Shown: in pieces, positions 28,357 to 49,087 of the stretch
How positions within the stretch are numbered: position 1 is the stretch's first letter
How the letters are laid out: every line of letters starts with the position of its first letter
NCBI RefSeq assembly: GCF_005938655.1
Contig: NZ_VCQT01000022.1
Span: forward strand, 124,001-188,000
DNA length: 64,000 nucleotides
Origin: Alloalcanivorax gelatiniphagus
Lineage (GTDB): Bacteria; Pseudomonadota; Gammaproteobacteria; Pseudomonadales; Alcanivoracaceae
Reading direction: 5' to 3'
Translations under genes and position numbers: made by a program
Notes under the pieces: generated by a model
Told to the model about the DNA's origin: nothing
The model's database searches: none
Seen by the model: the letters and a program-made list of their open reading frames with translations, nothing else

Positions 28357-28362
28357 CCGACA

Positions 28363-28391
28363 ATATAACGAATCCCGGCCAGCAAACGCAA
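28363..28391 (-). promoter_or_regulatory. Promoter of the AbiF-linked small RNA
   Basis: Minus strand reads TTGCGT (28391-28386), a 17-base spacer, then TTATAT (28368-28363). Spacing is optimal for sigma-70. The start site would fall near 28356, just before the hairpin, which fits a short independently transcribed RNA. Confidence 0.55.
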
Positions 28392-28602
28392 GTGGCCGCC
28401 GCCCCGCGAGGGAATGGGCTGAGACCCGATTTCCCAACCCGGGGGCCAACCGGCACCAACGCCACAACTAACGTCCGCCGACGGCAAGAGAAGCGCCAGG
28501 TTTAGCGGGGCCCCGGCCGGAACAGGGGCGGCACAACGCTCGCTGGTGTTGGGGGCTAGCTTCCGTAACAAAATACCCTCCCATCCCTGGTCATAATACG
28601 CC

Positions 28603-31336: not shown

Positions 31337-31366
31337 TTCGCTCTCTTGGGTTCTTGATGAGTAACG

Positions 31367-32281
31367 CTACTCTTCACTAAAATAGTCGCTGTCAATCTGC
31401 TTCACTTCATAAACCTGCTTGATACTCACCCCCAGGTTGTTTTCCACCATCAGTTGCGCCAGTTCCCTGCCGTCGAGCAGGACCACCTTCATGCTCAGAC
31501 CATCGGCGGCCTCGCGGGCGCCCGGTGAGAACTCGGAAGTGGTGATGAACACGCCCTTGCGGGCACCCCGTCGGGTGAGCGCGCCGATGAACTTGTCGAT
31601 TTCCGGGCGATGGACGGTGTTGGCCCAGCGCTTGGCCTGGAGATAGATCACGTCCAGCCCCAGCTTGTCTTCCTTGATGGTGCCGTCGATACCGTCGTCG
31701 TTGGTGAGCTGGGTGGCTTGCCCGGCTTCCTGGCGGGAGCCGCCGTAGCCCATGGCCAGCATCAGGTCGACCACCAACTGCTCGAAGAACTGGGGTGAGG
31801 CCTGGCGCACCTGGGTGAGTATCTCGTCGGTCAGAGCCTCCATGAGGGACTGATGGGCTTCGGCCAGGCGTTCGTCCGGGGTGGTCTGGTCCAGATCGTC
31901 GGCCATATCCTGGCTGTCGTCGGCCTTGTCCTTGGGCGTATGGGTATGGAAGCGCTCGAATTCGGGGAACTGCTTGAGCCAGCGGACGGTGATCCGGTCA
32001 GGGCCCTGGGCCAATGCATCCAGGCCGCGATCGGTAATCTGAACCATGCCGCGCTCCGGGATGTGCAGCAGGCCGGCTTTGTTCAGATAGGTTCGGGCCC
32101 AGCCGACCCGGTTGTTGATCACGGTCTGACGGCCGGATGGAAGTCTTTGCTTGCGCTCTTCGTCGCTCAGCAGGAACGTCTCCGCCACGTGCTGACGCAC
32201 GTCGCCGAGAGTCCGGGGCTGGCCATCGCTGACGGCGGCCAGCACCGGCCGCATCACGGTTTGGAAGTCGGGTATGGCCAT
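31367..32281 (-). CDS. Mrr-type restriction endonuclease
   Basis: The 304-aa protein has an N-terminal winged-helix Mrr_N domain (about residues 1-95, RPVLAAVSDGQPRTLGDVRQ) and a C-terminal Mrr catalytic domain. The nuclease core shows NDDGIDGTIKEDKLGLDVIY followed by LQAKRW, the expected D-(D/E)-QxK arrangement. Mrr enzymes cut modified DNA. Its place at the head of the hsd operon suggests a combined defence of unmodified and modified DNA. Confidence 0.9.
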   Translation of the reverse strand: MAIPDFQTVMRPVLAAVSDGQPRTLGDVRQHVAETFLLSDEERKQRLPSGRQTVINNRVGWARTYLNKAGLLHIPERGMVQITDRGLDALAQGPDRITVRWLKQFPEFERFHTHTPKDKADDSQDMADDLDQTTPDERLAEAHQSLMEALTDEILTQVRQASPQFFEQLVVDLMLAMGYGGSRQEAGQATQLTNDDGIDGTIKEDKLGLDVIYLQAKRWANTVHRPEIDKFIGALTRRGARKGVFITTSEFSPGAREAADGLSMKVVLLDGRELAQLMVENNLGVSIKQVYEVKQIDSDYFSEE

Positions 32282-32321
32282 AACGTCCCCTTTTTAATTC
32301 TTTAGCAGCACCAGCGGAGAT

Positions 32322-32618
32322 CTAATAACCCGCTTCCTTGTGATGGCGCACCGCCAACACATACACCGCATCTTCGCCGGGCAGGTAGCGGTAAAGCGCC
32401 ACATAACCGGCTTTGCCGAAAGCAATCATCAACTCCCGCAGTTCCGGCATCTCGTCATCGGGTCGGCCCATGTCCGGGGCTGTCTCCAACATCCGCAGAT
32501 GCCGCGCGAGGGTCCGACCGGCACGGACGGCCGATTCTCCAGCTTCCACGGCCTCCAGGAAAGCCCGGCACCGTGCCAGCCCGCGCACGGCGCCTTCGGT
32601 GATAATTACTCGTGGCAC
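32322..32618 (-). CDS. RelE/ParE-superfamily toxin
   Basis: The 98-aa protein has the ParE/RelE fold pattern: MPRVIITEGAVRGLARCRAF at the N-terminus, PDMGRPDDEMPELRELMIAF in the middle and AVYVLAVRHHKEAGY at the end. It overlaps the upstream antitoxin gene by 13 bases. Family members either block gyrase or cut mRNA; which applies here is unclear. Confidence 0.85.
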   Translation of the reverse strand: MPRVIITEGAVRGLARCRAFLEAVEAGESAVRAGRTLARHLRMLETAPDMGRPDDEMPELRELMIAFGKAGYVALYRYLPGEDAVYVLAVRHHKEAGY

Positions 32619-32875
32619 TCGGGCGGCGCCTTATCGTCCCGTCCCCAGGATTCCAGCCACTCGTTGGTTTCCTGGACCGTGAGGTGGCGCCCGGTCTCGC
32701 GGTAGGACCGCCAGGACTCCAGGGCTTCCTGTTTGAAGCTCTCCTGGGCCTCTTCGCGGGCCACATATTGCCTGATCGCTTCGAGCATGATCCAGTGGGG
32801 AGTTCGGCGGCGCTGGCTGGCCAGTGCCCGGACACGGCCTTTCAGTTCGTCGTCAATCTTGATGGAGGTTGCCAT
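32606..32875 (-). CDS. Ribbon-helix-helix antitoxin
   Basis: The 89-aa protein starts MATSIKIDDELKGRVRALAS, a ribbon-helix-helix DNA-binding N-terminus, followed by a charged toxin-binding tail. It precedes and overlaps the ParE-like toxin gene. It probably neutralises the toxin and represses its own promoter. Confidence 0.85.
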   Translation of the reverse strand: MATSIKIDDELKGRVRALASQRRRTPHWIMLEAIRQYVAREEAQESFKQEALESWRSYRETGRHLTVQETNEWLESWGRDDKAPPECHE

Positions 32876-33032
32876 GGCGGCCTCGTATCGAAAGGTAATA
32901 CCTGGTGATACCCTAGGTGGTTGATAGGGCTCTGTCCATAACGGACGGGGCAGGCGGGGTTCGGTAAGGTGGGGGGACGCGTTCAGAGTTTATGGGGGCT
33001 CTTGAAGCGCGGTGGACACCTCCCTGGTCGAT

Positions 33033-33057: not shown

Positions 33058-33092
33058 ACACCGACACATTCCCACCCAAAGAGGTGTTGACC

Positions 33093-33365
33093 ATGTCAGC
33101 GTCCAATCCGACCCGTTCAGTAACCGCCCATGTTCCCCTGGAACTGGCGGATCGCATCGATGAAGCCGCCATCCGGCTGGAACGATCCAAAAACTGGATC
33201 GTCCGCCAGGCCCTGGCCGACTGGCTCGACCTGGAAGAGGAACGTGACAGGCTCACCCGCGAAGCGCTGGCTGACGTGGACGCCGGACGCGTGATCGACC
33301 ATCAGGCTATTAGTGATTGGGCCGACAGTCTGGGCTCCGACTCGCCCCTGCCCGCTCCGCGCTGA
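33093..33365 (+). CDS. Ribbon-helix-helix (CopG-type) antitoxin
   Basis: The 90-aa protein has a CopG-type N-terminus (TAHVPLELADRIDEAAIRLE, then RSKNWIVRQALADWLDLEEE). The ATG at 33093 is preferred because GAGGTG stands 6 bases upstream. Its stop shares one base with the toxin start. The tail DHQAISDWADSLGSD likely binds the toxin. Confidence 0.87.
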   Translation: MSASNPTRSVTAHVPLELADRIDEAAIRLERSKNWIVRQALADWLDLEEERDRLTREALADVDAGRVIDHQAISDWADSLGSDSPLPAPR

Positions 33366-33640
33366 TGAAGCTCAAATGGACCAGCAAGGCGCTGTCCGAT
33401 CTGGTCAGGCTTTATGAATTTCTGGCGCCGATCAATCAACCCGCCGCGGCGCGCACCGTACGGCAACTCACCGACGCGCCCACCGCCCTGCTGACGAACC
33501 CACGGCTCGGCGAGCGTCTGGATACCTTCCAACCCAGGGCGGTGCGTCGCCTTCTGGTTGGCCATTACGAGATGCGTTACGAAGTGACCGATGACACCGT
33601 TTATATCCTGCGGCTATGGCATACGCGGGAGGATCGGTAG
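33365..33640 (+). CDS. ParE/RelE-superfamily toxin
   Basis: The 91-aa protein reads MKLKWTSKALSDLVRLYEFL and ends YEVTDDTVYILRLWHTREDR, a clear ParE/RelE pattern. The start is fixed by the TGATG overlap with the antitoxin stop. It is divergent from the other ParE-like pair at 32322-32875; the two toxins share only family-level similarity. Confidence 0.87.
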   Translation: MKLKWTSKALSDLVRLYEFLAPINQPAAARTVRQLTDAPTALLTNPRLGERLDTFQPRAVRRLLVGHYEMRYEVTDDTVYILRLWHTREDR

Positions 33641-33651
33641 CAGGAAGGCTC

Positions 33652-33797
33652 CGCCCCCAATAGAGCCATGCGCAAGGGTTTGCTATTCTTTCGCGCTTGG
33701 CTCCGTTTGGGTGGGGATCGCGGCTGAAGCCGCTCCTACCGCCCTGCCCTGCAAGCCACCCACACTCTCCAGAAAACAGGCGATACCGCGCTTATGG
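33652..33797 (+). repeat. Left copy of a 145-bp direct repeat (mutS leader duplicate)
   Basis: These 146 bases match 46385-46529 base for base except one extra A (CTGCAAGCC against CTGCAGCC). The copy contains a REP element and runs into an ATGG equal to the start of mutS, then diverges. The TAA stop of the large helicase gene (33794-33792, minus strand) lies inside its right end. Identity this high shows a recent duplication or active sequence exchange. Confidence 0.95.
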
Positions 33798-36700
33798 AAA
33801 ATCCTTGGGTTCATTGGCAAAAACATTTACCAACCTAGACTTCATCTGTTGCGTAAGCCTGGCGATACCGAGCGCCTGGCAGAACTCCGTAAACTGTCCC
33901 GCATCATCACAAGCCGACCGTATCTCGTGAATTTCTTCAGCACAGATATAGTCCAGCTTTTTCGTTTCGTCGTCCCGTCCATCCGTGCGGGCAAATCGTT
34001 TAACTGCCGTGCCACTCGTCTCCGGCCAATAAAAGCTGCCTACCTCTTCCCGAGTCGCCTCGCGATGCTGTTCCGCGATCTGCGCGACCCGCTCCTTGAT
34101 CTGCCGGCCCGCTCGCTGGAAGCCGTGCTCGCGAGCGATTCTGCGAACCAGCACTTCTTCGTGGATGGGACCTTCCAAGTCTACGACGTGCAGCACCATC
34201 TCCTTGAGCAGGTCGTCATACGCTGGCTGGTAGAATAACTCCGGGTCGATGGGGAAGCCGGCTAAATTGGCCCGGGCGTATCGAGTCACGATACCGTCGG
34301 GACCCGGCTCGCTGGCGCCGTTCGGCGAAGTTTGTTGAGAAGCTCGATCTTCCTCCTGCTTCGCCTGACCAGCCGCCTCGGCCTTTTGTGCCCGCTCCGC
34401 TCGTGTGGCCTCAAGATGTCCGGTCAAAGCCTGATCCAGCTCGTCTAGCGCTTTGTTTCGATTTGTCCACCAGTCCGTTGACCAAACTCGGAACAGGGTC
34501 CACCCCAGCCCTTCAAGGACACCTTGACGGATCTTGTCCCGTTCTCTGGCGTAGGCCGAACTGTGATACATAGCGCCATCGCACTCGATACCGGCTAAAT
34601 AGAGGCCGGGCAGATCCGGGTGGACGATACCCATGTCGATACGGTAGGCGGAGACACCGATCTGTGGGTGTACGGTCCAGCCCTTCTGCTGCAGACCGCG
34701 CGCCACCGCCACTTCAAATGGCGATTCGAAATCGCCCATGGACCCGCGAACAACCGCGCCCAGGGCGGACGCCCCGCGCTCAGCGTACTCAAGAAAGTGC
34801 TTCAGATCAGCCACGGCGCGAGCCTGGGTGCGGGCAAGGTCGATACGCTCGGGAGGCATGGTGGCGAATACCATCATCTCGGAGCGTGCACGGGTCATGG
34901 CGACGTTAAGGCGACGCTCCCCTCCGGTGCGGTTGAGTGGGCCGAAGTTCATGGTTACGTGGCCGGCCTCATCCGGACCGTAGGTAATACTGAACAGGAT
35001 CACATCCCGCTCATCCCCCTGCACGGTCTCCAGATTCTTCACGAACACCGGCTCCAAGGTATCCTCTTCAGAGAATGCCCACTCGATAGATGGATCCTCG
35101 GAACGCGCCGTGTCGAGCAGGTTTTCAATCAGGCTTTGCTGTTCGGTGTTAAAAGTCACGACACCAATAGACTGATGACGCACCGCGGGGTCGTTGGAGG
35201 TCAAGCGCCGTAAGATTTCCGCCACAATGGCCTTGGCTTCGCCCTGGTTATGCCGTGCCTTGCCACGGGCATAGAAGCCTTCCGTACGCACCAGCGAGAC
35301 CCCTTTATCCGGATGGACCGGGGCGGGGAAGGTGACCAGCGAGCTTTCATAGTAGCGGCTATTGGAGAACGCGATCAGGCTCTCGCGACGAGAACGGTAA
35401 TGAAGATTCAATACTCGCTGGGGAATGCTGGCGCCGATAAGCTCATCGAGGATACTTTCAAGATCTCCTTCCCCATCAACATCGCCATCCGGATCGTCAT
35501 CGGAACGGGCGAAGAAATTGGTGGGGGGCATCTGCTTGGGGTCCCCGGCCACAATGACCTGTTTACCGCGAGCAAGAGAACCCACCGCATCCCAAACTGT
35601 GATCTGGGAGGCTTCGTCAAAGATCACCACATCGAACAGCGCCTGTCCGGCGGATAGAAATTGCGCAATTGAGAGCGGGGACATCATCAGGCATGGCGCC
35701 AGGGTCGTCACCACGTCCGGGATGGCTTCCATCATTTCCCGCACTGGCTTATGCCGCGCCTTCTTCTGCAACTCGCGACGCAACACTCCCCAGGAAGAAT
35801 TTTTCCTGGTGCCTTCCTGATCCGGGATTTCCCCAGCCAGATTGGCAGCAATGTACTTGGCCGTCAGGTCATTGAACCGGGTATCCAACTCTCTGAAATT
35901 CCGGATCGACGCTTCATGCTCCGGCGATGAGAACTCACGCAGCACCTCGTCTTCGCCGATGACCGCCGAGGACCACCAACTACAGTAAGCGGCTTCAAAT
36001 ACATCTTCGATCTGATCCGCTGTCACCGTGCCGCTTTCGATGGCAGCCACCAGAGGCCCTAGTTGCAGATCCAAGGCCTCCGAGCGACGGCGCACCCAGG
36101 CGCACCAGTCCTTCAGCGAAACATGGTGATCGACAATTTCCTGGCATTGCGCGCGCACCACCTCCAAGGCGGCCACATCAGTCGGCAACCGACCGTCCAG
36201 CGACGCGCCGACCAGCTCCTCAAACCTAGCCTTGCGCGCATTGAACGTTTCGAGTGCCGCCTTGAAGCCATTGATAGCCCGGCCGACCGGGGCTTCGGGG
36301 GCCAGCAGGTCGTTCCCGTCGTACATCAGGGTGCGAATCTTGCCGCGCATGGCGGCCAGTGACTCCACATCATCCGCCAGCTTGCCGACCGCGACCCGGG
36401 CGCGGGTGCCCAGTAGCTTCAAGGCGGCCATGGCTTCAGGGTCGGAATTGTAGGAATCCCACTCCCGCAGGCCCTTCAGCAACCCGTCCAAGCGGTCGAT
36501 GTTGCCGCCGGTTTCCCGCAGCCGATCGAGCACGGGAATGTCATTATCCGGGTCAGGGTCACCCTGTGCCCCGCCCTCTCGCATCGCCTTGATGACCTTC
36601 CGCTTGGCAAACCAGCTTTTGGGCCACCAGGTGTCATTTGCCTCGCTCCACGCCTTCCCCAACTCCATCGCATCCAGCTTCTGCCAGGCCAACGCCTCAT

Positions 36701-39611
36701 AGTTGCAACTGAGCTCAGCCTGGGTGGCGATATAGGTCTTCAGCTGAGATACCGCTTCTTCAAGGGCGTCCAGGCGGTCCGGCGCGTCCGGTTCCAGGGC
36801 GAAGGATGCCTGCTGACGGTAGGTATCGAGCAATACCTGGCCACACTCATCCATGGCAGCCAGCTTGGCCAGATTCACAGTACCCAGAGTGATACCAAGC
36901 GCCTTTTGCAACTCGGTCAGCTCCAGCGAAACCTGATCGCTACTGGCCTGCAGCTTTCTGGCGGCACTCACCAGCTCGTCCTGCCACTGAGGCCGCCAAT
37001 CGTAATTACTGATCATGCTCAGGGGATGATCCACCAGATTCCCCACGGCGCCGGCCTGTACACTCAACAGCGAAGCCATCTCACGAAGCTGTTGCAGCTG
37101 CTTATCGTCGTGGTAATCCGCGTTAGGCCAGCTCAATCTTACTTTCTCGGCCAGATCATCATCACGGACTTTCACGCCAATCGCATAGTGGGCGGTGAGC
37201 CCATTGCGACGATGCCGGTGTAAGGCATTGACGACGTGATTTAGACGATCACGCAGTATCTCCAAGCGCTCACCCTCTGCCTTCCAATCACTGACCGACG
37301 ACTGGGACGCGCTGTTCCAGGAAGTGCGCAGCTGGTCCAGCACGTCCGCTTTCTTCGCCTTATTGGAGTGCAGTTCCAGGCAAAAATGGCCGAGGCCAAT
37401 ATCACGCAAACGCCGATGCACTACTTCCAGCGCTGCTGTCTTCTCGGATACGAACAGGACTTTCTTACCCTTGCCCAGCATGTGGGCAATCAGGTTGCCG
37501 ATGGTCTGACTCTTGCCAGTACCCGGCGGGCCGATGATCACGAAGTCCTTGCCCCGGTCCGCCGTGGCAATGGCCGCCATCTGGGATGAATCCGCCGGTA
37601 GCGGCGTCAGCAAGTCCGCCGGTGTGTAATCCCGGTCGATGTCCTTGGGGTCCACAAAGCGTATATCGCTTTCGTAGGCTTCACGGGGTGTATCCAGAAG
37701 ATGCTTCACCACGGGGCTTTCTTTAAGCGCCTCGGAGCGGTCCACCAGGTCTTTCCACATCAGGTACTTGGCAAAAGAGAAGTGGCCCAACACCACGTCT
37801 TCCACCACCTCGAACCCGGGTACGTCCTTGATAGCATGGCGCACCCGATTCCAGACACCCGCCACATCCACGCCGCTGTCGTCTTCAGGTAGAGAACCAC
37901 TCAAGCCGTGGATCTCGATTCCGAAATCCTTCTTCAACATCTCCAATAGAGTGGTATTAAACCGGGGCTCATCGTCATTGGCGACGATCTTTACGCCGCT
38001 ACGTACGGATTTCCGCTCCATAGAGACCGGCAGCAGAATCAAGGGCGCCCGATAGCGACGATTGTCTTTGTCTTTCTGCTTCCATAGCAGAAAACCCACC
38101 GCCAAGAAAAGGGTATTGGAGCCCCCTTCCTTGAGGGAGGTTTGTGCCTTCCGGAAAATCTCCACTCCCCGCTTTTCCAGCTCTTCCTGGGTCAGCTCAA
38201 CCAGCACCTGCTTCTTCGACAAGGCATCACGAGCATAGGCTTCTTTCAGCTCCTCGCCGGTACGCTGACGATGGATGTCCTCATCCTGCTCGTGACTCTG
38301 CAGCCGGGGGAAGGGCGCGATCGAGAGACGAGCCCCCGTTGCCAGTATATCTTCCAGCGCACCCGGGTCATCACAGACCAGCGTCAGACTGCCTTTACTG
38401 GGTCTCTGGTTTAGCAGCGGGTTGCGGGCAGAAAGGTCCAGCAGCTTTCGCTGCCAGCGCTCAAGCCGGCCACCAGGAGTGTCTTCCGGCACCTCGTCCT
38501 GTACATGAACGGTGGTGGAAGGGAGATTCGGTGCGTCCTCCAACCCTGGCTCAATGACGTCGACAACACCGCCTGTCTTGATAGTATCGGCTACCTGTGA
38601 CTTGAGGCTGATTGGATTAATGCGATGCGCCCGTGCCCGACGAATATCAATGGCGGCGACAAACTCGTTATCTTTATCCAGTCCCACCTGCTTGATGCCC
38701 TCCTGCACCGCCCTGGAAAAGGGCGGCGCCGGGTGGCTGGTCATTAAAGTGGTTTCGATCAGGATCAGTTCTTTCAGAGGAATACGCTGGCGTAGAGTTT
38801 CCGCTTCGTCTACCACCACGCTGGACAAGTCCTCTTTCTCCAGCCATAGGCCCACCAGAGCATGTCCCTCGGTAATGATTACCAAAGGGTTCAATTGGGC
38901 CTGCTCCAGCGCCGCCGCGAACAGCAAAGTCGTATCCAGACACGTACCCACTTTGGCACTTTCTATCTTACTGGGCAGGCGAATTTTCTGGCCATTGCTC
39001 TCGAAGCTGGCGGGTGGAAGTGCATAAGCAATTTGCATTTTGACGATGGCGGAATAAATGGCCGAAGCCATTAACCATACCTGCTCACGGCTACCCGAAT
39101 CATAGCCATTGATCTTATCCGGCTTGCCCGCGTTACGCAGAATCTGGCTGGCCTGCCCCAACAGCCTATCCACTGCCGGGTCATTGGGGGTACAGAACGC
39201 TGCTAATAACTCCGGAATATACGTCGCGCCCCCCCACTCATTACAGGCCAGCAACTCCACCTTGATCGATGATTCGGTCAGTAACTGCCCCCTCTGCAAG
39301 ACGCGAATCGTCACAGTGCCCCGCATGGACTCCGTCAAGTCAAATAAAAAGCCCCCATCCAACTCAAGGTCACGATCCTTCATCGCGAGCATGCCACCCG
39401 CCGAAAGACGATCCACCGTCCAGGTCTTTGACTTCACGAATCCTGGTGACGCATCCAACACAATGGAGAGATCCGACAGATCCTGCTCTTCATCAAGGTT
39501 CTCTATCCGCAATTCCCGCAGCACGGCGAAGGCGCTCTGATGACAAGCAAAGTTGATTTTTTCCACCAAGGTGGCTTGGATCTTGATTCTTGACGTTTCC
39601 TGGTCAGCCAT
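33792..39611 (-). CDS. Hhe-like giant defence protein: DUF4011, SF1 helicase, Vsr-like nuclease, DUF3320
   Basis: The 1939-aa protein fits the DUF4011-helicase-Vsr-DUF3320 proteins reported as the antiphage system Hhe. An N-terminal region near 220-255 (GTCLDTTLLFAAALE, then EGHALVGLW) resembles a transglutaminase-like fold with Cys224 and His250. DUF4011 begins near 380 (RLERWQRKLLDLSARNPLLN). Walker A is IIGPPGTGKSQT near 692-703; Walker B is FDVVIFDEASQ. A Vsr/PD-(D/E)XK-like nuclease lies before the C-terminus (YRIDMGIVHPDLPGLYLAGI). DUF3320 (PIHEEVLVRRIAREHG) follows. It is downstream of the YhaN-like ATPase. Confidence 0.88.
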   Translation of the reverse strand: MADQETSRIKIQATLVEKINFACHQSAFAVLRELRIENLDEEQDLSDLSIVLDASPGFVKSKTWTVDRLSAGGMLAMKDRDLELDGGFLFDLTESMRGTVTIRVLQRGQLLTESSIKVELLACNEWGGATYIPELLAAFCTPNDPAVDRLLGQASQILRNAGKPDKINGYDSGSREQVWLMASAIYSAIVKMQIAYALPPASFESNGQKIRLPSKIESAKVGTCLDTTLLFAAALEQAQLNPLVIITEGHALVGLWLEKEDLSSVVVDEAETLRQRIPLKELILIETTLMTSHPAPPFSRAVQEGIKQVGLDKDNEFVAAIDIRRARAHRINPISLKSQVADTIKTGGVVDVIEPGLEDAPNLPSTTVHVQDEVPEDTPGGRLERWQRKLLDLSARNPLLNQRPSKGSLTLVCDDPGALEDILATGARLSIAPFPRLQSHEQDEDIHRQRTGEELKEAYARDALSKKQVLVELTQEELEKRGVEIFRKAQTSLKEGGSNTLFLAVGFLLWKQKDKDNRRYRAPLILLPVSMERKSVRSGVKIVANDDEPRFNTTLLEMLKKDFGIEIHGLSGSLPEDDSGVDVAGVWNRVRHAIKDVPGFEVVEDVVLGHFSFAKYLMWKDLVDRSEALKESPVVKHLLDTPREAYESDIRFVDPKDIDRDYTPADLLTPLPADSSQMAAIATADRGKDFVIIGPPGTGKSQTIGNLIAHMLGKGKKVLFVSEKTAALEVVHRRLRDIGLGHFCLELHSNKAKKADVLDQLRTSWNSASQSSVSDWKAEGERLEILRDRLNHVVNALHRHRRNGLTAHYAIGVKVRDDDLAEKVRLSWPNADYHDDKQLQQLREMASLLSVQAGAVGNLVDHPLSMISNYDWRPQWQDELVSAARKLQASSDQVSLELTELQKALGITLGTVNLAKLAAMDECGQVLLDTYRQQASFALEPDAPDRLDALEEAVSQLKTYIATQAELSCNYEALAWQKLDAMELGKAWSEANDTWWPKSWFAKRKVIKAMREGGAQGDPDPDNDIPVLDRLRETGGNIDRLDGLLKGLREWDSYNSDPEAMAALKLLGTRARVAVGKLADDVESLAAMRGKIRTLMYDGNDLLAPEAPVGRAINGFKAALETFNARKARFEELVGASLDGRLPTDVAALEVVRAQCQEIVDHHVSLKDWCAWVRRRSEALDLQLGPLVAAIESGTVTADQIEDVFEAAYCSWWSSAVIGEDEVLREFSSPEHEASIRNFRELDTRFNDLTAKYIAANLAGEIPDQEGTRKNSSWGVLRRELQKKARHKPVREMMEAIPDVVTTLAPCLMMSPLSIAQFLSAGQALFDVVIFDEASQITVWDAVGSLARGKQVIVAGDPKQMPPTNFFARSDDDPDGDVDGEGDLESILDELIGASIPQRVLNLHYRSRRESLIAFSNSRYYESSLVTFPAPVHPDKGVSLVRTEGFYARGKARHNQGEAKAIVAEILRRLTSNDPAVRHQSIGVVTFNTEQQSLIENLLDTARSEDPSIEWAFSEEDTLEPVFVKNLETVQGDERDVILFSITYGPDEAGHVTMNFGPLNRTGGERRLNVAMTRARSEMMVFATMPPERIDLARTQARAVADLKHFLEYAERGASALGAVVRGSMGDFESPFEVAVARGLQQKGWTVHPQIGVSAYRIDMGIVHPDLPGLYLAGIECDGAMYHSSAYARERDKIRQGVLEGLGWTLFRVWSTDWWTNRNKALDELDQALTGHLEATRAERAQKAEAAGQAKQEEDRASQQTSPNGASEPGPDGIVTRYARANLAGFPIDPELFYQPAYDDLLKEMVLHVVDLEGPIHEEVLVRRIAREHGFQRAGRQIKERVAQIAEQHREATREEVGSFYWPETSGTAVKRFARTDGRDDETKKLDYICAEEIHEIRSACDDAGQFTEFCQALGIARLTQQMKSRLVNVFANEPKDFP

Positions 39612-39664
39612 AACCGTTCCCTCACAACCGAATATTATTAAGCATCAACCAACAATTACAAAAA

Positions 39665-42301
39665 TCATCCCTGTAAAACCTCCACATCCCGAGCGGTCAC
39701 CCCCAGGTCCCGCCAGTTATCCGGATGGCAGGTAAACAGCAATATCTGATGTCTCTGCGCGGCATCGTAGAGCACCCGTTTCATGGCCCCGAGCCGCGCG
39801 GCATCACTGTGGACCAGGGCGTCATCCAGAATGATCAGGGTCGGCCTGCCCGCTTCGAGCAGCAGGTCCGCGTAGGCCAGCCGGCTGATCAAGGCCATCT
39901 GCTCCCGAGCGCCGAAGCTCAGCTCCTCGAACTTACCCCGCTCTTCAACCCCATGGCCCTGGCGGATCAGTACTTCTGGGATGAGATTTTCATCCACCTC
40001 CAGGCTGGCTTCCGGGAACAGTAGTTGCAGATAGTGGTTGAGGTGCCGTTGTAAGGGTTCCTGGAGTTGGCGAGTCAGTTCCAGGCGATGCTCTCTCAGT
40101 CGGGTGTTCAGCAGATCCAATGCTTTCGCCCGGCGTTCCAACTCACGTCTACGGCGAATAGCATGCTCCAACTCGCTTCCCAGTTCGGCACTTTGCTCTT
40201 CCAGACCTTCTGCCCCTGCCGCTTCCAGGCGGGCTTGGATTTGGATCAGCTCTCGACTTCGCTTCTTTTCCTGCTGCTCCGCCGCATCCGCGCTCCTGTT
40301 TAAGCGCTCCACATCCTGCTCAAGGACAGCCGGTTTCGCCTGTTCAATCTGCTTGTTACGCTCCAAAAGCTTCTCGTTGAGGCTGCGCTGTTTCACGCGC
40401 AAATCAATCAGCCGATTCTCAGCCTGCTTCTGCCGCTGCTTGCGGTCCGGCGCTTGCAGTTCGTTATTAAGGCGCTCCCACTCCTTTTTGGCGCGATTTA
40501 GTGACTGCTCCGCCAGCGAAAAGTCGCCCGTGAGCTTCTGTTTCGCCGCTTCAGCTGCCTCAAGGGCCTGTTGCGCGGATTCGAGTCGAGTCTCAGCACG
40601 GGACAAGGACAGACTATTGTCATCTTGCTCCGGAAGCGCCTGCATTTGAGAGGCCAGTTCATCCTTGCGCGCCTGCCTTAGCCGCAGGCGATCCGACAGG
40701 GCCTCCAGGCCCTCAGGCGCTGACTCATTGAGCAACGATTCATCGCGCTGAATAGCCTGCTGTAACTCTCGCAGCTGACTAAGCCGACCTTCTGCCTCGG
40801 CCAGGGAAGTCACACGGAGCCTGGACAGCAAGCTCTCTTGCTCGTCGGTCAGGTTCTGCCGGGCCCGTGCTATCTCCGCAACATCTTCACCACCCGGCAG
40901 CACCCGCAAGGTCCCCACGCCTTTGATGGCCACCTCACCCGGCTCAATCAGCAGATGCTCGCTACGCCCAACCACCTTCTTGCCATCCAGGGTGACGCTC
41001 TGATCATCGGTCAAATCGAATTGCAGTCGGGTTGATACCGCATCCTGCTGGATGGCCAGGCGGTCCAACTCTGACGTCACGTCTTTCAGGCGCTCAACCA
41101 CTTGCGGATCGATATCCAGAGATTGCCGCTTCTGACGGTTTTCCAGAAGGACGGAATGTAACTCCCTTGCTCGTGCCAGTTTGGCCGTATCGCTTTCCAG
41201 GTCGGCCTCGATCCCTTCCCGTTCGCGAGCCCACTCCCTGCGTTGTTGATGCTGTTGCGCGAGCTTTAACGTCTTGCGAGCGGCCTCATGCGCCTGCACC
41301 GCCTCTGCAAGTGCCTTCTCGCGAGCAGGCTTTCGGGCTTCGAGGTCCGCTTGCGCCAGCTCCTCCTTAACCTTCTCGTCCTGACGCCGCGCCAGTTCCG
41401 CCTGTTGACCCTGAAAACCATTCAGCAGATCCAACGTCGTCTGGATGCTGGTCTGACACTCTTCAAGGGCCTGCTGGTCACGATCCTGGTCTTTTTGCCA
41501 GGCCATGACTTCCGCCAATCGGCCTTCCGCCTCTTTGGCCTGCTGGCGATAGGTTTCCCAAAGGCGATCCGCTTCGGCCCGAGCTTGCTCGTCTCTAAGC
41601 TGGCCAAGACGGTCTACATGTTCGCGGTATTCCCTTACACGGCCTTGAATATCACTGAGTTGCCCTTGGAGCCCCTGCTCGTCCGCCAAGGCTTGAGCAT
41701 AACTGCCGGTGGGTCTCCCGGTGCCAGTCAGCAGACTGGAACGTTCCTTCGCGACCTGATTGATCAATTCATCGCCGGTGCTGCTGGTCATCTCTCCGAG
41801 ATTGCCTCCAAGCGCGGCTTTCAAGTGCTGGCCGGCGTACCCCACCGGGGCCTGTATTTCCTGGCCCGTGCCTTGCTCAACCCAGAGCAGGCCAGGAATG
41901 CCCCAATGCCTCTGCTGGCTGGCGCCCTTTGCGGCATATTCATAGCCGAGCAGGCTCGATAGCTTTTCCTCGCCTTCATCCCCACTGTAGACCGTGCCGT
42001 CTACCGTCAGGTCACAGCGCTTCTTCTTGAGGAAGCTCTTAACCAGCCTCCAGGATTGACCCTGCCATTCAAAATCCAGCTCCACGGTGGGCGCCGACGC
42101 CGAATCCCCCCAGGGTTGCAGGTCGTCAACACTGGAGGATTTGTGACGTTCAAAGAAGGCGGCGCGAATCGCTCGCACCAGGGTGCTCTTGCCGGATTCA
42201 TTGGGCCCGGTGAACAGGTTGATGCCAGCGTCAAGGTCTTCTATTTCGACGGGTTCGCGGAACTGGCGTAACTGTTCCGCCTTCAGACGCAGCAGCCTCA
42301 T
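39665..42301 (-). CDS. YhaN/Rad50-like AAA ATPase without zinc hook
   Basis: The 878-aa protein is an SMC/Rad50-type ATPase. Walker A is TGPNESGKST at 31-40; the signature is LSFGAREQM and Walker B is PTLIILDDAL near the C-terminus. Long Gln/Glu-rich coiled coils flank a small beta-rich segment (SVTLDGKKVVGRSEHLLIEP). No CxxC zinc hook is seen at the apex, unlike SbcC/Rad50, which fits the YhaN family. Its ATG overlaps the nuclease stop by four bases (ATGA), so the two are made as a pair. Confidence 0.85.
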   Translation of the reverse strand: MRLLRLKAEQLRQFREPVEIEDLDAGINLFTGPNESGKSTLVRAIRAAFFERHKSSSVDDLQPWGDSASAPTVELDFEWQGQSWRLVKSFLKKKRCDLTVDGTVYSGDEGEEKLSSLLGYEYAAKGASQQRHWGIPGLLWVEQGTGQEIQAPVGYAGQHLKAALGGNLGEMTSSTGDELINQVAKERSSLLTGTGRPTGSYAQALADEQGLQGQLSDIQGRVREYREHVDRLGQLRDEQARAEADRLWETYRQQAKEAEGRLAEVMAWQKDQDRDQQALEECQTSIQTTLDLLNGFQGQQAELARRQDEKVKEELAQADLEARKPAREKALAEAVQAHEAARKTLKLAQQHQQRREWAREREGIEADLESDTAKLARARELHSVLLENRQKRQSLDIDPQVVERLKDVTSELDRLAIQQDAVSTRLQFDLTDDQSVTLDGKKVVGRSEHLLIEPGEVAIKGVGTLRVLPGGEDVAEIARARQNLTDEQESLLSRLRVTSLAEAEGRLSQLRELQQAIQRDESLLNESAPEGLEALSDRLRLRQARKDELASQMQALPEQDDNSLSLSRAETRLESAQQALEAAEAAKQKLTGDFSLAEQSLNRAKKEWERLNNELQAPDRKQRQKQAENRLIDLRVKQRSLNEKLLERNKQIEQAKPAVLEQDVERLNRSADAAEQQEKKRSRELIQIQARLEAAGAEGLEEQSAELGSELEHAIRRRRELERRAKALDLLNTRLREHRLELTRQLQEPLQRHLNHYLQLLFPEASLEVDENLIPEVLIRQGHGVEERGKFEELSFGAREQMALISRLAYADLLLEAGRPTLIILDDALVHSDAARLGAMKRVLYDAAQRHQILLFTCHPDNWRDLGVTARDVEVLQG

Positions 42302-43422
42302 TCACCACCTCCCCGCGCCTGTTTCTCGAGCAACATCGAGGCCAGAATAGCCATCGCGTCTCTGGCGGCTTCGCCGTCATCACCTTCCTGCTCATCACGC
42401 AGCTCGTTAATCAGCTGGCCCACGTAGCCGTCGGCATGAAGGGCGGCGATGTCCTCTTCGGTGGCCAACAAGCGGAGATCGGACAGGTCATAACCAAGGC
42501 TGCGAAAGCGGGCTTCAGCCACCGAAAGCGTGTCTTCTAGCTGCTGTTTGCCCAGCAAGCTGATTTCTCCTTCCAGGCGCAGGGCCACTACCGCCTTTTC
42601 AGGTTGCTGCTTGAGCTTTGTAACCAGCTGATCCAGGTCCGACGAGACAGTCAGACGCTCCGTCATCTGAATCCAGGGATGCTGGCCGATCGCGCGGACG
42701 TCTACCCGAGGCTCGGCGCCCGCTTCTGGAATGTCCACCAACAGCACATTGCCAGGGTCGTTCCCCTTGAACCGGTCTTGTTCCGGGGTACCGCTGTACC
42801 AGGTGCGAGCGTTAATTCGCTTAGTGCCATGCCAGTCGCCCAGGGCCAGATAATCCAATTGAGCCGTGGCGGCTCTGTCCGCGGCAATAGGGTTCGGGGA
42901 GTCGACATCTTCAGCAAGCACGCCCTGAATACTGCCGTGGGCCAGACCAATGCAGACCAGACCGGCTGGAGTTTCTGCCCGATCAAACCAATTGGTCAGG
43001 TCCGGCTGGGTATGCCGCTGGGTAAGCGGCGCGGGCAGAACAACAAAGCCTGCTTCAATGAACTCCAACACATCAGGCGCAAGGGCCAAGTGGGCATTGT
43101 CCGGCACGGCCCCCAGGCGCTGTGCCCGGGTCCATACGCTCTCGGCAAGCGCCGCATCGTGGTTACCGGAAATCAGAAGCCAGGGGCCGGTGTAAGCGGC
43201 CATGGCATTAAATAAGCGCCGGATGGTTCGGTCTGAAACCGTTTGGGCATCAAAAACATCACCCGCGACCAGCACGGCGTCAACTGCCTCTTGGTCTGCC
43301 AGTTCAGCAATCCGCTCAACGGCGGTGAGCCGAGCCTCCGCCAGTGCCACCGCGTCATCCGGGGCGAACTTTGAATACTGCCGGCCAATCTGCCAATCGG
43401 CGGTGTGAAGAAATCGAGGCAT
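42298..43422 (-). CDS. YhaO/SbcD-like metallophosphoesterase nuclease
   Basis: The 374-aa protein is a DNA-processing metallophosphoesterase, partner of the YhaN-like ATPase. The metal-binding motifs are in order: HTADWQIGR, VLVAGDVFD, LISGNHD and LAHGS, then LGDWHG (usual form LGHIH). The start MPRFLHTADWQIGR at 43422 is preferred, since upstream residues are not family-like. It is the first intact gene of the minus-strand operon below the WYL regulator. Confidence 0.88.
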   Translation of the reverse strand: MPRFLHTADWQIGRQYSKFAPDDAVALAEARLTAVERIAELADQEAVDAVLVAGDVFDAQTVSDRTIRRLFNAMAAYTGPWLLISGNHDAALAESVWTRAQRLGAVPDNAHLALAPDVLEFIEAGFVVLPAPLTQRHTQPDLTNWFDRAETPAGLVCIGLAHGSIQGVLAEDVDSPNPIAADRAATAQLDYLALGDWHGTKRINARTWYSGTPEQDRFKGNDPGNVLLVDIPEAGAEPRVDVRAIGQHPWIQMTERLTVSSDLDQLVTKLKQQPEKAVVALRLEGEISLLGKQQLEDTLSVAEARFRSLGYDLSDLRLLATEEDIAALHADGYVGQLINELRDEQEGDDGEAARDAMAILASMLLEKQARGGGE

Positions 43423-43424
43423 CC

Positions 43425-43805
43425 CTATTTCCTTCTCCTCACTGAGCGCTCGCTGCAAGCGAATGCACTTCCATATCGGTTCTTATCAAACCACCGGATA
43501 ACTCGCCGCCCCCTAATCGTGCGGGGATTATCCATCATTACGTTAATTACCACCGGCACCAGGTCGACCAGAATCGCCACGCAGTCACGAAATTGCTCGC
43601 GGTTGACGCTGCCTTCCCAGGTCGCGCCACCGTGCATAATCTGATTTTTCAGGGTATAGATACGGCTGAAGACGATGGAGAGTACCCAAGGCGGGTTGTG
43701 TTGGACCAGGTCGCTGTTTGCAGCTTTCTTGACGCCGTCAAAGCTGTGTTCCCACTCCGCGGCGGTCAAGTTACCTTTCTGATGCTCCCAAAAGCAGGAG
43801 AACAT
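43425..43805 (-). pseudogene. Remnant of a HEPN-domain protein
   Basis: The 126-codon frame holds the C-terminal half of a common roughly 230-aa HEPN protein: FWEHQKGNLTAAEWEHSFDG, then SRIYTLKNQIMHGGATWEGS with the R-x4-6-H motif. The N-terminal half is missing: the open frame extends upstream only to a stop about 32 codons away, without recognisable family sequence. The tail after MMDNP is also unlike the family. A GGGAGG site precedes the ATG, so a short product could still be made. It ends 3 bases from the nuclease start. Confidence 0.55.
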
Positions 43806-43995
43806 GTACCCCTCCCGATATCCGCCTTCGCGGTCCGGCGTTTTAACAGATCCTATCGCCGGTTCCCTGAGCCGGTGTTCCTGCCTTTTTTGAGAACCAT
43901 ATCACATCCGACCTAAATGGTCGTTGAGATGGCGTCCATGTACCAAGTGCTCATTCGTGACAAGTGCCACCATATGACTTCACTGACTACACATC

Positions 43996-44021
43996 TATAC
44001 TGGCTACATGAACATGTCCAG
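43996..44021 (+). promoter_or_regulatory. Promoter -10 and candidate operator of the WYL regulator
   Basis: TATACT (43996-44001) is a good -10 for the plus-strand WYL gene; the -35 is poor. It overlaps an interrupted palindrome, ACATG-AA-CATGT (44006-44017), with outer CTGG/CCAG (44000-44003, 44018-44021). CapW/BrxR proteins bind such palindromes to repress their own and divergent genes. This function is inferred. Confidence 0.45.
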
Positions 44022-44064
44022 TTTTCAGGCAGGTCGTCAGGCCAACAGATGAGGAGAAAGTGTC

Positions 44065-44955
44065 GTGGCTCGCGTTACCCGTAAAAGTGCCGGCGCCTGG
44101 CCGGTGCGTTGGGATCTGTTACTGCGCTACCGGTTGATTGAGGTGGTGGCCCTTTGGGAGGGCCGGCTGACCACCAATCATTTAATGCGCGCTTTCGGCA
44201 TAGGCCGTCAGCAGGCCAGCAAGGACATCAATACCTATCTGGCGGAGTATGGGCCGGAGAATCTGATATATGACCGTTTCCTAAAAGGCTATCGGCCCAC
44301 GGAGCCATTCGGGCCGGTATTTACTCAGGGCACCGCTGACGAATACCTGCAGATGATGCACGCTCGGGAGGACCTGGCCTGCTCGTTTGAGTCGCTGACG
44401 GTGCGCGAGCTCAACACCGAGGTGCTGCTGCCTCCGGCGCGGGACTTGCGCCCGGCGGTGCTGCGGCCGGTGTTGCAGGCCTGCCGGGAGGGCAAGCGGG
44501 TGGAGATCGAATACGCATCGCTGGCGAACCCGGAGCCCGAGTTCCGGGTGATCCAACCACACACAGTGGTGCACACTGGCTACCGCTGGCATGTTCGGGC
44601 TTGGTGCGAGAAGAATGGGGATTTTCGGGATTTCGTACTCAGTCGCATTAGTGATCGGCCGGAGCTGGTGCTACCCGGGGACCGGGGCGCCGAAGACGAT
44701 GAGGCTTGGCGAACCCGAGTGGTCGTGCGCCTGGGGCCCGATCCCCGTTTATCGCCGGCCCAGCAAGCCCTGATCGCGCGGGATTACGGTATGGAGCACG
44801 GTGAACTGCGGCTAGAGACCCGCGGTGCCCTGGTAAGTTATCTGCTCCAGCAATTGCGGGTGGATACACCGGCGGATCAGCGATCGCCGGAGGCGCAACA
44901 GGTGGTGGTTCTGAATCGCGATGAGGTGGAACGCTGGGCGAGTATGCCGGGGTGA
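44065..44955 (+). CDS. WYL-domain transcriptional regulator (CapW/BrxR-like)
   Basis: The 296-aa protein has an N-terminal winged helix (LIEVVALWEGRLTTNHLMRA, then FGIGRQQASKDINTYL), a WYL domain (RVIQPHTVVHTGYRWHVRAW, then FVLSRISD) and a C-terminal extension. This order matches CapW and BrxR, repressors of CBASS and BREX defence loci. It starts with GTG at 44065 after GGAG. It is divergent from the minus-strand nuclease/ATPase/helicase genes, which it likely represses until infection or DNA damage. Confidence 0.85.
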   Translation: MARVTRKSAGAWPVRWDLLLRYRLIEVVALWEGRLTTNHLMRAFGIGRQQASKDINTYLAEYGPENLIYDRFLKGYRPTEPFGPVFTQGTADEYLQMMHAREDLACSFESLTVRELNTEVLLPPARDLRPAVLRPVLQACREGKRVEIEYASLANPEPEFRVIQPHTVVHTGYRWHVRAWCEKNGDFRDFVLSRISDRPELVLPGDRGAEDDEAWRTRVVVRLGPDPRLSPAQQALIARDYGMEHGELRLETRGALVSYLLQQLRVDTPADQRSPEAQQVVVLNRDEVERWASMPG

Positions 44956-44965
44956 TGCTCTGACG

Positions 44966-45565
44966 TTATTGGATAGGCTGACCAATACATCGATCGAAAA
45001 TGCTTTCCAGGCGCCCATAGTTACAGGCTACGGCATCGATATTCCCGAGCCGCCAGTCTTCCGGTTCAACCTCCCACCAACTGATTTGGTAGCCGGCATT
45101 GATGATCAGATGCTCGAACATCAGCCGCTGGGCGCGACCGTTTCCTTCCCGAAAAGGGTGCAACATATTGATGTCACCGTAATATTCGGCCACGGCGGGG
45201 ATCAGGTCAGCGCGTTCGCAGTGCTCAAGCCAACCATCCTGCGCGAGCCGAGAGAATACTTTTTCCGCTTCCGCTTCAATGCGGGTGACGTTGCAAAACC
45301 GTGTGTCGTCTTTGGCGATGTCCACGGTGCGGATCTCGCCAGCCCAATCATAGATATCCTGGAATAAATGACGGTGGAGACTTTGCAGATAAGCGAGGGA
45401 ATATGGAGGAGGAGTAAACTCGATTTCGTTGGCGGCTATCACGGTGAGTTCGCGTTCCGCTTCTTCGAGCTCATCATCGACCACGAGCCCCAGGCGGTTG
45501 ATAAGCGTCGAGGTGCCCGGGTAACAGTGCGGATCCTGGGCAACTCCGTATTTGTCCCTGCTCAG
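44966..45565 (-). CDS. Fic-family AMP transferase toxin, probable CTG start
   Basis: The Fic motif HPFREGNGRAQRL is intact near residue 138, so AMP transfer to a target protein is likely (family knowledge). The ATG/GTG starts available cut the conserved N-terminus. Reading back to CTG at 45565 gives LSRDKYGVAQDPHCYPGTST, which aligns with the start of E. coli Fic (MSDKFGEGRDPYLYPG). AAGGTG lies 6 bases upstream of CTG, and the CTGA overlap with the antitoxin stop mimics ATGA coupling. This gives 199 aa. It converges on the WYL gene. Confidence 0.8.
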   Translation of the reverse strand: MSRDKYGVAQDPHCYPGTSTLINRLGLVVDDELEEAERELTVIAANEIEFTPPPYSLAYLQSLHRHLFQDIYDWAGEIRTVDIAKDDTRFCNVTRIEAEAEKVFSRLAQDGWLEHCERADLIPAVAEYYGDINMLHPFREGNGRAQRLMFEHLIINAGYQISWWEVEPEDWRLGNIDAVACNYGRLESIFDRCIGQPIQ

Positions 45566-45829: not shown

Positions 45830-46282
45830 TCAGTACCCCCTATCCCGCTCTTGGGCCTGATCCGCCAGCGCCCGCAGCGCGGCTTCGCTTTCGGTGGCGC
45901 GGGCCGCCCGGTACGCCATCACATCCTGAAAGCGGATACGTCGGTGCGTCCCAACCCGGGTAAAAGGAATGACGCCCTCCTCCAGCAGCTTGACCAGGTG
46001 GGGCCGGGAGACGTTCAGCAGGTTGGCGGCTTCCTGGGTGGTCACTTCGGCGTGCATCGGCATCAGGGTGACGGCGTTGCCCTGGGCCATTTCCGTGAGG
46101 ATGTTACGCAGCAGTTCCAGGGCGTGCCGGGGCAGCACCAGGTCCGTGTCGTCCATGCGCACCCGGGCAGGTTCCTGCCGGGGGTGGTCCTTCAGCAGCC
46201 TTGCCAGGGCGACGGCGCTTTCCCGGGCCAGGTCCGCAGCCCGGGAGTCCGGGATAGTGTCGTGATCCGGCGCGGTGTTCAT
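45830..46282 (-). CDS. Excisionase-type helix-turn-helix protein, orphan antitoxin
   Basis: The 150-aa protein has a C-terminal excisionase-like helix-turn-helix (VTTQEAANLLNVSRPHLVKL, then LEEGVIPFTRVGTHRRI). Proteins of this form are usually antitoxins paired with a PIN-domain toxin gene downstream. Here only 88 bases lie before the Fic pair and no PIN gene is seen, so the toxin seems lost. The start at 46282 is supported by GGAGAGG. It is divergent from mutS. Confidence 0.8.
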   Translation of the reverse strand: MNTAPDHDTIPDSRAADLARESAVALARLLKDHPRQEPARVRMDDTDLVLPRHALELLRNILTEMAQGNAVTLMPMHAEVTTQEAANLLNVSRPHLVKLLEEGVIPFTRVGTHRRIRFQDVMAYRAARATESEAALRALADQAQERDRGY

Positions 46283-46384
46283 GGTGACCTCTCCAGGCGA
46301 TATAGCTCGATATCCGCACGCTATTCGAAACAAACGAAAATCGCAATAAACGAAATGGCAGGTAGCGCACCTCAATGCAGGTGG

Positions 46385-46529
46385 CGCCCCCAATAGAGCC
46401 ATGCGCAAGGGTTTGCTATTCTTTCGCGCTTGGCTCCGTTTGGGTGGGGATCGCGGCTGAAGCCGCTCCTACCGCCCTGCCCTGCAGCCACCCACACTCT
46501 CCAGAAAACAGGCGATACCGCGCTTATGG
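46385..46529 (+). repeat. Right copy of the 145-bp direct repeat (native mutS leader)
   Basis: This copy carries the mutS leader, including a REP element (46449-46472) and the ATG of mutS. It matches 33652-33797 except for one base. Together they bracket 33.8-46.4 kb. Since this copy joins intact mutS, it is probably the original and the left one the duplicate. Confidence 0.95.
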
Positions 46530-49087
46530 CAAAGGACGACCTTTCCGGCCACACCCCGATGATGAAGCAGTATCTGGGCCTCAAGGCCGAGCATCCGGAT
46601 CAGTTGCTGTTCTACCGGATGGGGGATTTCTACGAGCTGTTTTTCGGTGACGCGCAGAAGGCGGCGCGGCTGCTGGATATCACGCTGACCCAGCGCGGGC
46701 AGAGCAATGGCAAGCCGATTCCCATGGCCGGGATTCCCTATCATGCGGCGGAGGGGTATCTGGCGCGGTTGGTGAAGCTGGGCGAGTCGGTGGCGATTTG
46801 CGAACAGATCGGCGATCCGGCGCTGGCGAAGGGGCCGGTGGAGCGCAAGGTGGTGCGGATCGTGACGCCGGGGACGGTGAGCGATGAGGCGTTGCTGGAG
46901 GAGCGGCGGGATACGCTGTTGTGCGCGTTGTTCGAGGACGGGCCGGCGGTGGGTGCGGCGAGTCTGGATCTGGCCGCCGGGCGGTTCGTGGTAACCCGGG
47001 TGGAGGGGCACGAGCAGTTGCAGGCGTTGCTGGAGCGTTGGCAGCCGGCGGAGTTGCTGGTGTGCGAGGAGCACGGTTTGCCGGCGGCGCTGGTGGAGCG
47101 GGCCGGGTGCCGCAAGCGGCCGCCGTGGGAGTTCGACAGCGAGGCGGCGTTGCGGCAGTTGTGCAAGCAGTTCGGGGTGCAGGATCTGTCCGGGTTCGGG
47201 CAGCCGCCGGCGGTGGCGGTGGCCGCCGCCGGGGCGTTGCTGCAGTACGCCCGGGATACCCAGCGCAACAGCCTGCCCCATGTGACCGGGCTGGCCATGG
47301 AGGCGTTCGATGACGGGGTGGCCATGGACGCGGCGACGCGGCGCAATCTGGAGCTGACCGAGACCCTCAATGGCGACGAGGTGCCGACTCTGGCGTGGGT
47401 GCTGGACAGCACCGAGACGGCCATGGGGGCGCGGTTGTTGAAGCGCTGGATTCACCGGCCGCTGCGCGACCGGGCGGTGCTCGGTGATCGCCAGCGTCGG
47501 GTGTCGGCGCTGCGCGACGGCTGGCGGTTCGAGGCGGTGCGCGAGGTGCTGGACCGGATCGGCGATATGGAGCGGATTCTGGGTCGGGTGGCGTTGCGCT
47601 CGGCGCGGCCCCGGGATCTGACCCGGTTGCGGGTCAGTCTTGAGGCGCTGCCGGCGCTGCATGGGGCGCTGCCGGAGGACCAGGCGTTCGCGGCGCTGCA
47701 GGAACGGTTGGGTGAGTTTCCCGAGCAGGCGGCGTTGCTGCAAAAGGCGGTGATCGAGAATCCGCCGATGCTGATCCGCGACGGCGGCGTGATCGCCGAG
47801 GGGTACAGCGCGGAGCTGGACGAGCTGCGTTCGATCAGCGAGAACGCCGGCCAGGTGCTGGTGGACATCGAGACCCGGGAGCGCGAGCGCACCGGTTTCT
47901 CCACCCTGCGGGTCAAGTACAACCGGGTGCACGGCTATTACATCGAGCTGTCCCGCCGGGAGGCGGACAACGCGCCGATGGATTACCAGCGCCGCCAGAC
48001 CCTGAAGAACGCGGAGCGTTTTATCACTCCGGAGCTCAAGGAGTTCGAGGACAAGGCGCTGTCCGCGTCGAGCAAGGCGCTGACCCTGGAGAAGCGTCTG
48101 TATGAGCAGTTGATCGAGACCCTGGCGGCGGACCTGGGTTCGTTGCAGGCCAGCGCCGCGGCGGTGGCCGAGCTGGACGTGCTGGCCGCCTTCGCGGAGC
48201 GGGCCGAGGCGCTGGGCTGGGTGCAGCCGCAGTTGGTGACCGAGCCGGTGGTGGAGATCGTCGATGGCCGCCATCCGGTGGTGGAGCAGGTGCTGGACGA
48301 TGCGTTCGTGCCCAACAGCCTGCATCTGGACGATCAGCGCCGCATGGTGATCATCACCGGCCCGAACATGGGTGGTAAGTCCACTTATATGCGCCAGACC
48401 GCCCTGGTCGCCCTGCTCGCCCATATCGGCAGCGCGGTGCCGGCGGCCAGCGCACGGGTGGGCATGCTGGACCGCATCTTTACCCGCATCGGTTCCTCCG
48501 ACGATCTGGCCGGCGGCCGTTCCACCTTTATGGTGGAGATGTCGGAGACCGCCAATATTCTCAATAACGCCACGCCGGAGAGCCTGGTGCTGATGGACGA
48601 GATCGGCCGGGGCACCAGCACCTTCGACGGGCTCAGCCTGGCGTGGGCGGCGGCGGAGCATCTGGCCCGCAATCTCAAGGCGTTCACCCTGTTCGCCACC
48701 CATTATTTCGAGCTGACGCAACTGCCGGAGCAGTTGCCGGGCGTCTATAATGCGCACCTGACCGCCAGCGAACACGATAACCGCATCGTCTTTCTGCATC
48801 GGGTGCAGGAGGGGCCGGCCAGCCGCAGCTATGGTCTGCAGGTGGCGCAGCTGGCGGGGGTGCCGGCGGGGGTGATCCGCCGCGCCACCGACAAGCTGGC
48901 CGAGCTGGAACAGGGCGAGCGGCCCAAGTCGGCGGCGCCCGCCCCGGCCACCGCGCCGGCCCAGGCGGATCTGTTCGGCGCGCCCAGCGCCGTGGAGAAG
49001 GCGCTGGCGGACATCGATCCGGACGAGTTGACGCCCCGGCAGGCGCTGGAGCGGTTGTATACCTTGAAGGCATTGGGCGAGGGTTAA
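46526..49087 (+). CDS. mutS: DNA mismatch repair protein MutS
   Basis: MutS recognises mispaired bases and starts mismatch repair with MutL. The 853-aa length is normal. The mismatch-binding N-terminus shows [17 protein letters not shown] (Phe of the FxE motif region) and the ATPase has Walker [14 protein letters not shown] near residue 612, Walker [17 protein letters not shown], and [11 protein letters not shown]. The start [16 protein letters not shown] fits the family. It is followed by fdxA, as in Pseudomonas. Confidence 0.98.

Follow-up and report, generated by a model that had tools for sequence, protein, structure and literature searches.

A probable site of defence cargo behind a BrxR-type regulator, with separable modules, 5' of mutS in Alloalcanivorax gelatiniphagus

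Do a WYL-domain regulator and the nuclease, ATPase and helicase genes that face it on the opposite strand form one conserved defence system, or are they separable parts behind a regulator that also heads other genes? The question is raised by a locus within a 64,000-nucleotide stretch of the genome of Alloalcanivorax gelatiniphagus (hereafter the window), for which a sequence-only reading had proposed a composite four-gene system set in a defence island. ORF calls place the four reading frames (WYL, nuclease, ATPase and 1939-aa helicase) where that reading had put them, and the defence-island setting is borne out as well. The earlier description missed one further ORF, what is left of a HEPN gene between WYL and the metallophosphoesterase (Table 1). 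The comparison does not support a single conserved composite, for HEL and MPE mostly occur apart and the same type of WYL faces other cargo. In our judgement the locus is probably a site where a BrxR-type regulator heads defence cargo made of separable and exchanged modules, inserted 5' of mutS; the biochemical activities discussed below are predictions.

Table 1. Features of the locus and its borders, in window coordinates
Feature	Position	Strand
HEL: ProA-type helicase-nuclease (DUF4011, SF1 helicase, MTES_1575 nuclease, DUF3320), 1939 aa	33792-39611	-
ATP: Rad50/SbcC/YhaN-like ATPase, 878 aa, 4-base overlap with the MPE stop	39665-42301	-
MPE: SbcD/YhaO-like metallophosphoesterase, 374 aa from ATG 43422	42298-43422	-
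HEPN gene remnant, 126-aa ORF; N-terminal half gone, K in place of the motif R, C-terminus in another frame	43425-43805	-
Stretch between cargo homology (to 43804, against L052) and front-end homology (from 43872, against the second WYL locus of the genome)	43805-43871	unstranded
TATACT hexamer (43996-44001), then palindromic box GGCTACATGAACATGTCC (44002-44019), putative WYL operator	43996-44019	+
WYL: BrxR/CapW-family regulator, 296 aa	44065-44955	+
Left direct repeat, 150 bp, 98.7% identity to right copy	33652-33801	+
Right direct repeat, spans the mutS start (ATG 46526)	46385-46533	+
Neighbouring gene mutS, with the variable site at its 5' end	46526-49087	+

The assignment of the regulator to the CapW/BrxR type holds. 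The protein carries a WYL domain and resembles solved BrxR (7t8k, E 9.4e-65 over residues 16-293) and CapW (7tb5, E 4.9e-48) over its full length, that is, helix-turn-helix (HTH), WYL and C-terminal domain. An 18-bp imperfect palindrome lies directly 3' of the TATACT hexamer. CapW sites overlap the -10 element (PMC9122588), and BrxR binds inverted repeats near its own promoter (PMC9122601). Of 16 other WYL loci aligned, 15 retain the palindromic box upstream of WYL, whatever their cargo (19 loci were given to the alignment; G148 and L057 had no anchor, and G690 is the sole aligned locus without the box). The exact box is unique in the window, and up to three mismatches yield two matches against 0.47 expected.

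WYL would probably bind this box and repress itself together with the divergent cargo, until a ligand linked to phage or DNA damage displaces it and lifts repression. A promoter scan of 43400-44100 gave no promoter-like site directed towards the cargo, and the one site found points to WYL. Since the window holds a single exact box and that scan gave no site towards the cargo, repression of this cargo by WYL is something that we infer. Box-bearing WYL genes also occur with no evident defence cargo (G659 C75:78630, L207, L208). Same-family WYL genes before defence genes, with a palindromic site overlapping or adjoining the -10 element, are likewise seen in BrxR/CapW-regulated defence islands (PMC9122601, PMC9122588; see also PMC9122589), and diverse systems are described near BrxR homologues (PMC9122601). 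The present locus differs from those islands by its other cargo, by a junction at which a HEPN gene has decayed and by the presence, within one genome, of two near-identical front ends that head different cargo. A further difference lies in two of its relatives (L199 and L243), in which about 91 bases separate a second exact box (9478-9498 in L199) from the first cargo gene, and other genes stand between WYL and that cargo.

All domains of HEL (DUF4011, AAA_11, AAA_12, the MTES_1575 nuclease and DUF3320) score above their Pfam cut-offs. The sequence-only reading had called this protein Hhe-like, which is correct as to the general class of helicase-nucleases and incorrect as to Hhe itself: HEL shares the domain order of Hhe (DUF4011-helicase-Vsr-DUF3320), but reaches only 846.9 bits against a curated Hhe cut-off of 2000. 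It scores 2197 bits against NCBIfam NF058533, 'anti-phage protein ProA' (curated equivalog cut-off 1500), with an alignment spanning positions 1-1878 of the 1903 in the model, and in PADLOC the score for PDC-S37 (1250 bits) exceeds that for Hhe (586 bits). HEL matches nearly the full ProA/PDC-S37 model; what sets it apart is its neighbourhood, an SbcCD-like pair transcribed in the same direction. The predicted anti-phage role is taken from the NCBIfam name, and a ProA-type HEL would be expected to restrict phage alone; the open-licence literature searched yielded no study of ProA in an anti-phage role. A DUF4011 gene serves as a flank of a Pseudomonas aeruginosa defence hotspot (PMC10250203). 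Five relatives of HEL with 84-86% identity (G282, G662, G667, G668, G688) end near the position of residue 1740 in the window protein and are devoid of the DUF3320 end, those of G668 and G688 being cut at contig ends.

The proposed nuclease-ATPase pair with its 4-base overlap is confirmed. Metallophos in MPE and AAA_23 in the ATPase exceed their Pfam cut-offs, AAA_27 barely so (22.8 bits, cut-off 22). The listed TTG start of MPE at 43458 would give 386 aa, and similarity starts only at the ATG adopted in Table 1; in this reading, too, the gene overlaps the ATPase gene by 4 bases. As in SbcCD, YhaON and Mre11-Rad50, a metallophosphoesterase is joined to a P-loop coiled-coil ATPase in overlapping genes. 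MPE differs from its SbcCD and Mre11-Rad50 counterparts by scores below the SbcD cut-offs (TIGR00619, 58.7 vs 77.65 bits; NF008206, 40.4 vs 450 bits) and by its motifs. Mre11-type enzymes use DxH and GHxH as metal-ligand motifs. MPE keeps GDVFD, GNHD and the following H, and departs from the full Mre11 set (DxH, GDxxD, GNHD, H, GHxH) by DxQ and GDxH in place of DxH and GHxH; both replacements occur in 66/66 aligned members of its clade and may reflect a changed activity. The pair could act as a mobile module that processes or trims DNA ends. No paper combining three of the terms YhaO, YhaN, phage defence, SbcCD-like and WYL was found in the open-licence literature searched.

How regularly these parts occur together was surveyed in three ways. 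Among 46 genomes of the family, HEL is found in 7, full-length MPE in 4, and both in 2 (G000 and G674, the locus of the latter having the same coordinates as L052 of Alloalcanivorax balearicus). The five genomes with the above HEL relatives have no MPE, two genomes (G663, G690) carry the MPE-ATPase pair (MPE of 81% and 70% identity) adjoining SNF2-type helicases and no HEL, and G675 and G680 have short SbcD-like matches only. HEL is present at 2 of 95 distinct MPE loci (L052 and L048). These derive from 98 loci, namely 18 regions from a search in which 110 of 293 genomes matched, mostly by short SbcD-like hits, and the best 80 of 135, less 3 duplicates; 12 of the 95 have less than 5 kb downstream or less than 1 kb upstream. 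Conversely, the MPE-ATPase pair stands beside HEL in 2 of 40 HEL regions (L154 and L166), which were picked by score from 38 of the 135 genomes matching among 398 and extend about 7 kb to each side, several being cut by contig ends. Outside the family all four gene families occur together once, in L154, with an MPE 25% and an ATPase 20% identical to those of the window. Two candidates from these surveys were not taken up: an ATPase match at L171 is an OLD/GajA-type protein adjoining GajB and no pair member, and in L048 the gap that separates MPE from HEL holds a 342-aa protein with only a sub-threshold PDDEXK_4 match.

By the family and locus counts the parts are separable, and the genomes with one part and not the other (5/46 and 2/46) support a modular reading. 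Rare co-occurrence of the four genes, named beforehand as the outcome that would speak against a composite system, is largely what was found, and as far as gene content tells, a fixed four-gene system conserved in this order is not supported.

The composite idea can nevertheless be put in a looser form, in which MPE and ATP would trim or resect the ends of phage DNA and HEL would take over the product, with WYL in control of all three. HEL, ATP and MPE are co-directional with short gaps, and A. balearicus keeps them side by side at 80-85% identity; HEL also occurs with an SbcCD-like pair in L154 (with WYL), L166, L048 and, about 9 kb apart, G574, and since these pairs are of different clades they do not represent one inherited operon. 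Among 49 other HEL genomes, SbcD-like matches lie near HEL in G603, in G574 (8.8 kb) and in two members of one genus, G403 and G544, 'near' meaning within 10 kb as read from coordinates by eye, and BrxR-like WYL lies near HEL in 1 of the 49 (G603 only). As a control, 0 of 88 HsdR-type rows fall within 10 kb of an SbcD-like match, these rows including 3 from the present genome (the closest of them 16 kb away from MPE) and one gene that is split over two entries. The resulting 3/49 vs 0/88 (Fisher p 0.044) treats G403 and G544 as a single case and takes G574 as near, and it comes from a control and a test picked after seeing the data, with the clustering of genes in defence islands still contained in the comparison. 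On these counts HEL and the MPE pair are separable, yet meet more often than in this simple HsdR control.

Those meetings, the lack of a cargo-ward promoter-like site in the scan and the WYL genes with no evident defence cargo all argue against a modular, jointly controlled locus. Against the composite, the gene run of L166 goes on into ABC-3C genes, and the close kin of HEL and MPE are found apart in the family as described. A TM0106-type nuclease-helicase stands directly before an MPE relative in 8 sphingomonad plasmid records, the eight proteins being at least 95% alike and thus one lineage. The looser composite keeps some weight because helicase-nucleases have met SbcCD-like pairs repeatedly (L154, L166, L048), to which the TM0106-MPE plasmid records add; overall we regard it as rather unlikely. 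On one of the eight plasmids, a conjugative Sphingobium plasmid (L172, 17618-26828), WYL, TM0106 nuclease-helicase, MPE, AAA ATPase and WYL stand in a row; WYL genes flanking TM0106-MPE were examined in this record alone.

It may also be asked whether the pair belongs to housekeeping DNA repair, having reached the island by drift and playing no role in defence. The majority of the 95 distinct MPE loci indeed consist of two genes with no conserved third neighbour, and the company of MPE-type pairs varies among 9 annotated plasmid loci. Against this, close kin of MPE adjoin SNF2 helicases, a methylase-like protein or an integrase (L057, L056, L239), and the relative in L184 adjoins genes annotated as anti-phage-associated DUF4297 and HerA. 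Full-length MPE in only 4/46 family genomes makes the pair accessory here, and we hold a housekeeping role to be quite improbable.

The HEPN ORF was compared with 11 full-length relatives. It is devoid of the N-terminal half that is present in 11/11, has K at the motif position where R is kept in 11/11, and diverges at its C-terminus, so that no full HEPN domain with R-x4-H motif is left, and the HEPN copy at the second WYL locus of the genome is damaged as well, by an internal deletion. That the truncated ORF works as a fifth component is hence very unlikely, although a purine-rich stretch precedes its ATG and its stop lies 2 bases ahead of MPE. WYL genes of at least 60% identity number 15 in 293 genomes of the order; 6 of them lie within 3 kb of a HEPN match, and remnants lie near the two of the present genome. 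We suggest that a HEPN gene, first in several related loci, has decayed at this one. WYL, BrxR and HEPN appear together in PMC12839542, which concerns a topic other than this arrangement.

The reading that we prefer, a site with a constant regulator and exchanged modules, draws on the second WYL locus. Its WYL is 85% identical to that of the window, and the DNA match (74% over window 43872-44937, comprising WYL and most of the intergenic stretch) ends before the cargo. Behind this shared front end stand a 410-aa protein, a 938-aa SNF2 helicase, the deleted HEPN copy and type I restriction genes, the last named from an HsdR match and resemblance. In A. balearicus (L052) both cargoes are found in tandem: HEPN, a 460-aa protein, SNF2 and a HEPN fragment, followed by MPE, ATP and HEL. 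The SNF2 helicase of L052 is 65% identical to that of the second locus, and L052 is colinear with window 33803-43682 at 80%. The HEPN-460-SNF2 block recurs in G182 and G675 with 91-98% identity to L052, near WYL genes 89% and 85% identical to that of the window. On another A. balearicus contig a WYL (71%) faces a full HEPN gene and a third gene set, and in a related genus (G282 and G667) WYL genes of 71% and 70% identity lie upstream of HEL, with other genes in between and MPE absent. The second front end with other cargo and the tandem cargoes of L052 support the view that cargo blocks have been swapped behind near-identical WYL front ends. The retention of the box across WYL loci and its second copy in L199 and L243 count in favour of the preferred reading too, the second copy bearing on repression of the cargo only indirectly.

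As to its position, the segment 33802-46384 is bounded by the direct repeats, of which the right copy reaches into the start of mutS. G676 represents an empty site, with a single repeat 8 bases from a flank matching window 32247-32939, and G182 is also continuous at mutS. A tyrosine integrase gene (Pfam) adjoins mutS in G690 and a similar-looking gene, by resemblance only, does so in G675, where mutS lies about 30 kb away from repeat and flank, with a WYL-HEPN-SNF2 locus in the intervening DNA. Repeats and empty site argue for insertion of the present segment at the 5' end of mutS; together with the integrase-bearing island they indicate, by genome comparison, that this site varies within the Alcanivoracaceae. 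The repeat is in part a short dispersed element found many times (a 92-bp part lies elsewhere in G182), and a near-whole repeat is matched in only two places of this genome.

A tRNA-Arg at 32503-32586 (ARAGORN) was considered as integration site and rejected; it is taken as a false positive because Rfam gives no match at the gathering threshold and because it lies inside a 98-aa ORF (32322-32618, ParE-like by eye) beside an RHH antitoxin ORF. The surroundings hold two pairs of ParE/RHH-like toxin-antitoxin ORFs (32322-32875 and 33084-33640; RHH by Pfam for 32606-32875, the rest by eye), the second of which has a DNA match adjoining WYL in G182. On the same side of mutS lies a second defence set with HsdR, HsdS and HsdM (type I restriction), Abi_2 and Mrr genes (24027-32281). 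Between WYL and mutS, a Fic/Doc gene (44966-45484) and a 192-aa ORF of helix-turn-helix-like appearance (45830-46408) are located within the direct repeats. An int-alpA RNA match (62766-62830, minus strand) lies beside a 292-aa ORF (61869-62747) that has no Pfam match at E 0.001.

BrxR-led islands, ProA and SbcCD-like pairs are already known. In the limited open-licence literature searched we found no description of cargo exchange behind near-identical WYL/operator copies in one genome, nor of the recurring HEPN gene, the duplicated box or the mutS site. A more far-reaching, and in our estimation rather doubtful, proposal would be twofold: that the SbcCD-like pair is a portable processor of DNA ends and was recruited to helicase-based immunity several times, joining ProA-type, TM0106-type and SNF2-type helicases in WYL-led islands and widening their range of attack, and that repressor and box form a portable control cassette which allows cargo to be swapped without rewiring.

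The locus cautions against naming composite systems from a single operon. If the preferred reading of exchanged modules is true, this would be a defence site that is re-stocked, with repressor and operator held constant and changing cargo, so that a newcomer would be controlled at once; the two WYL loci with different cargo in one genome make this idea directly testable.
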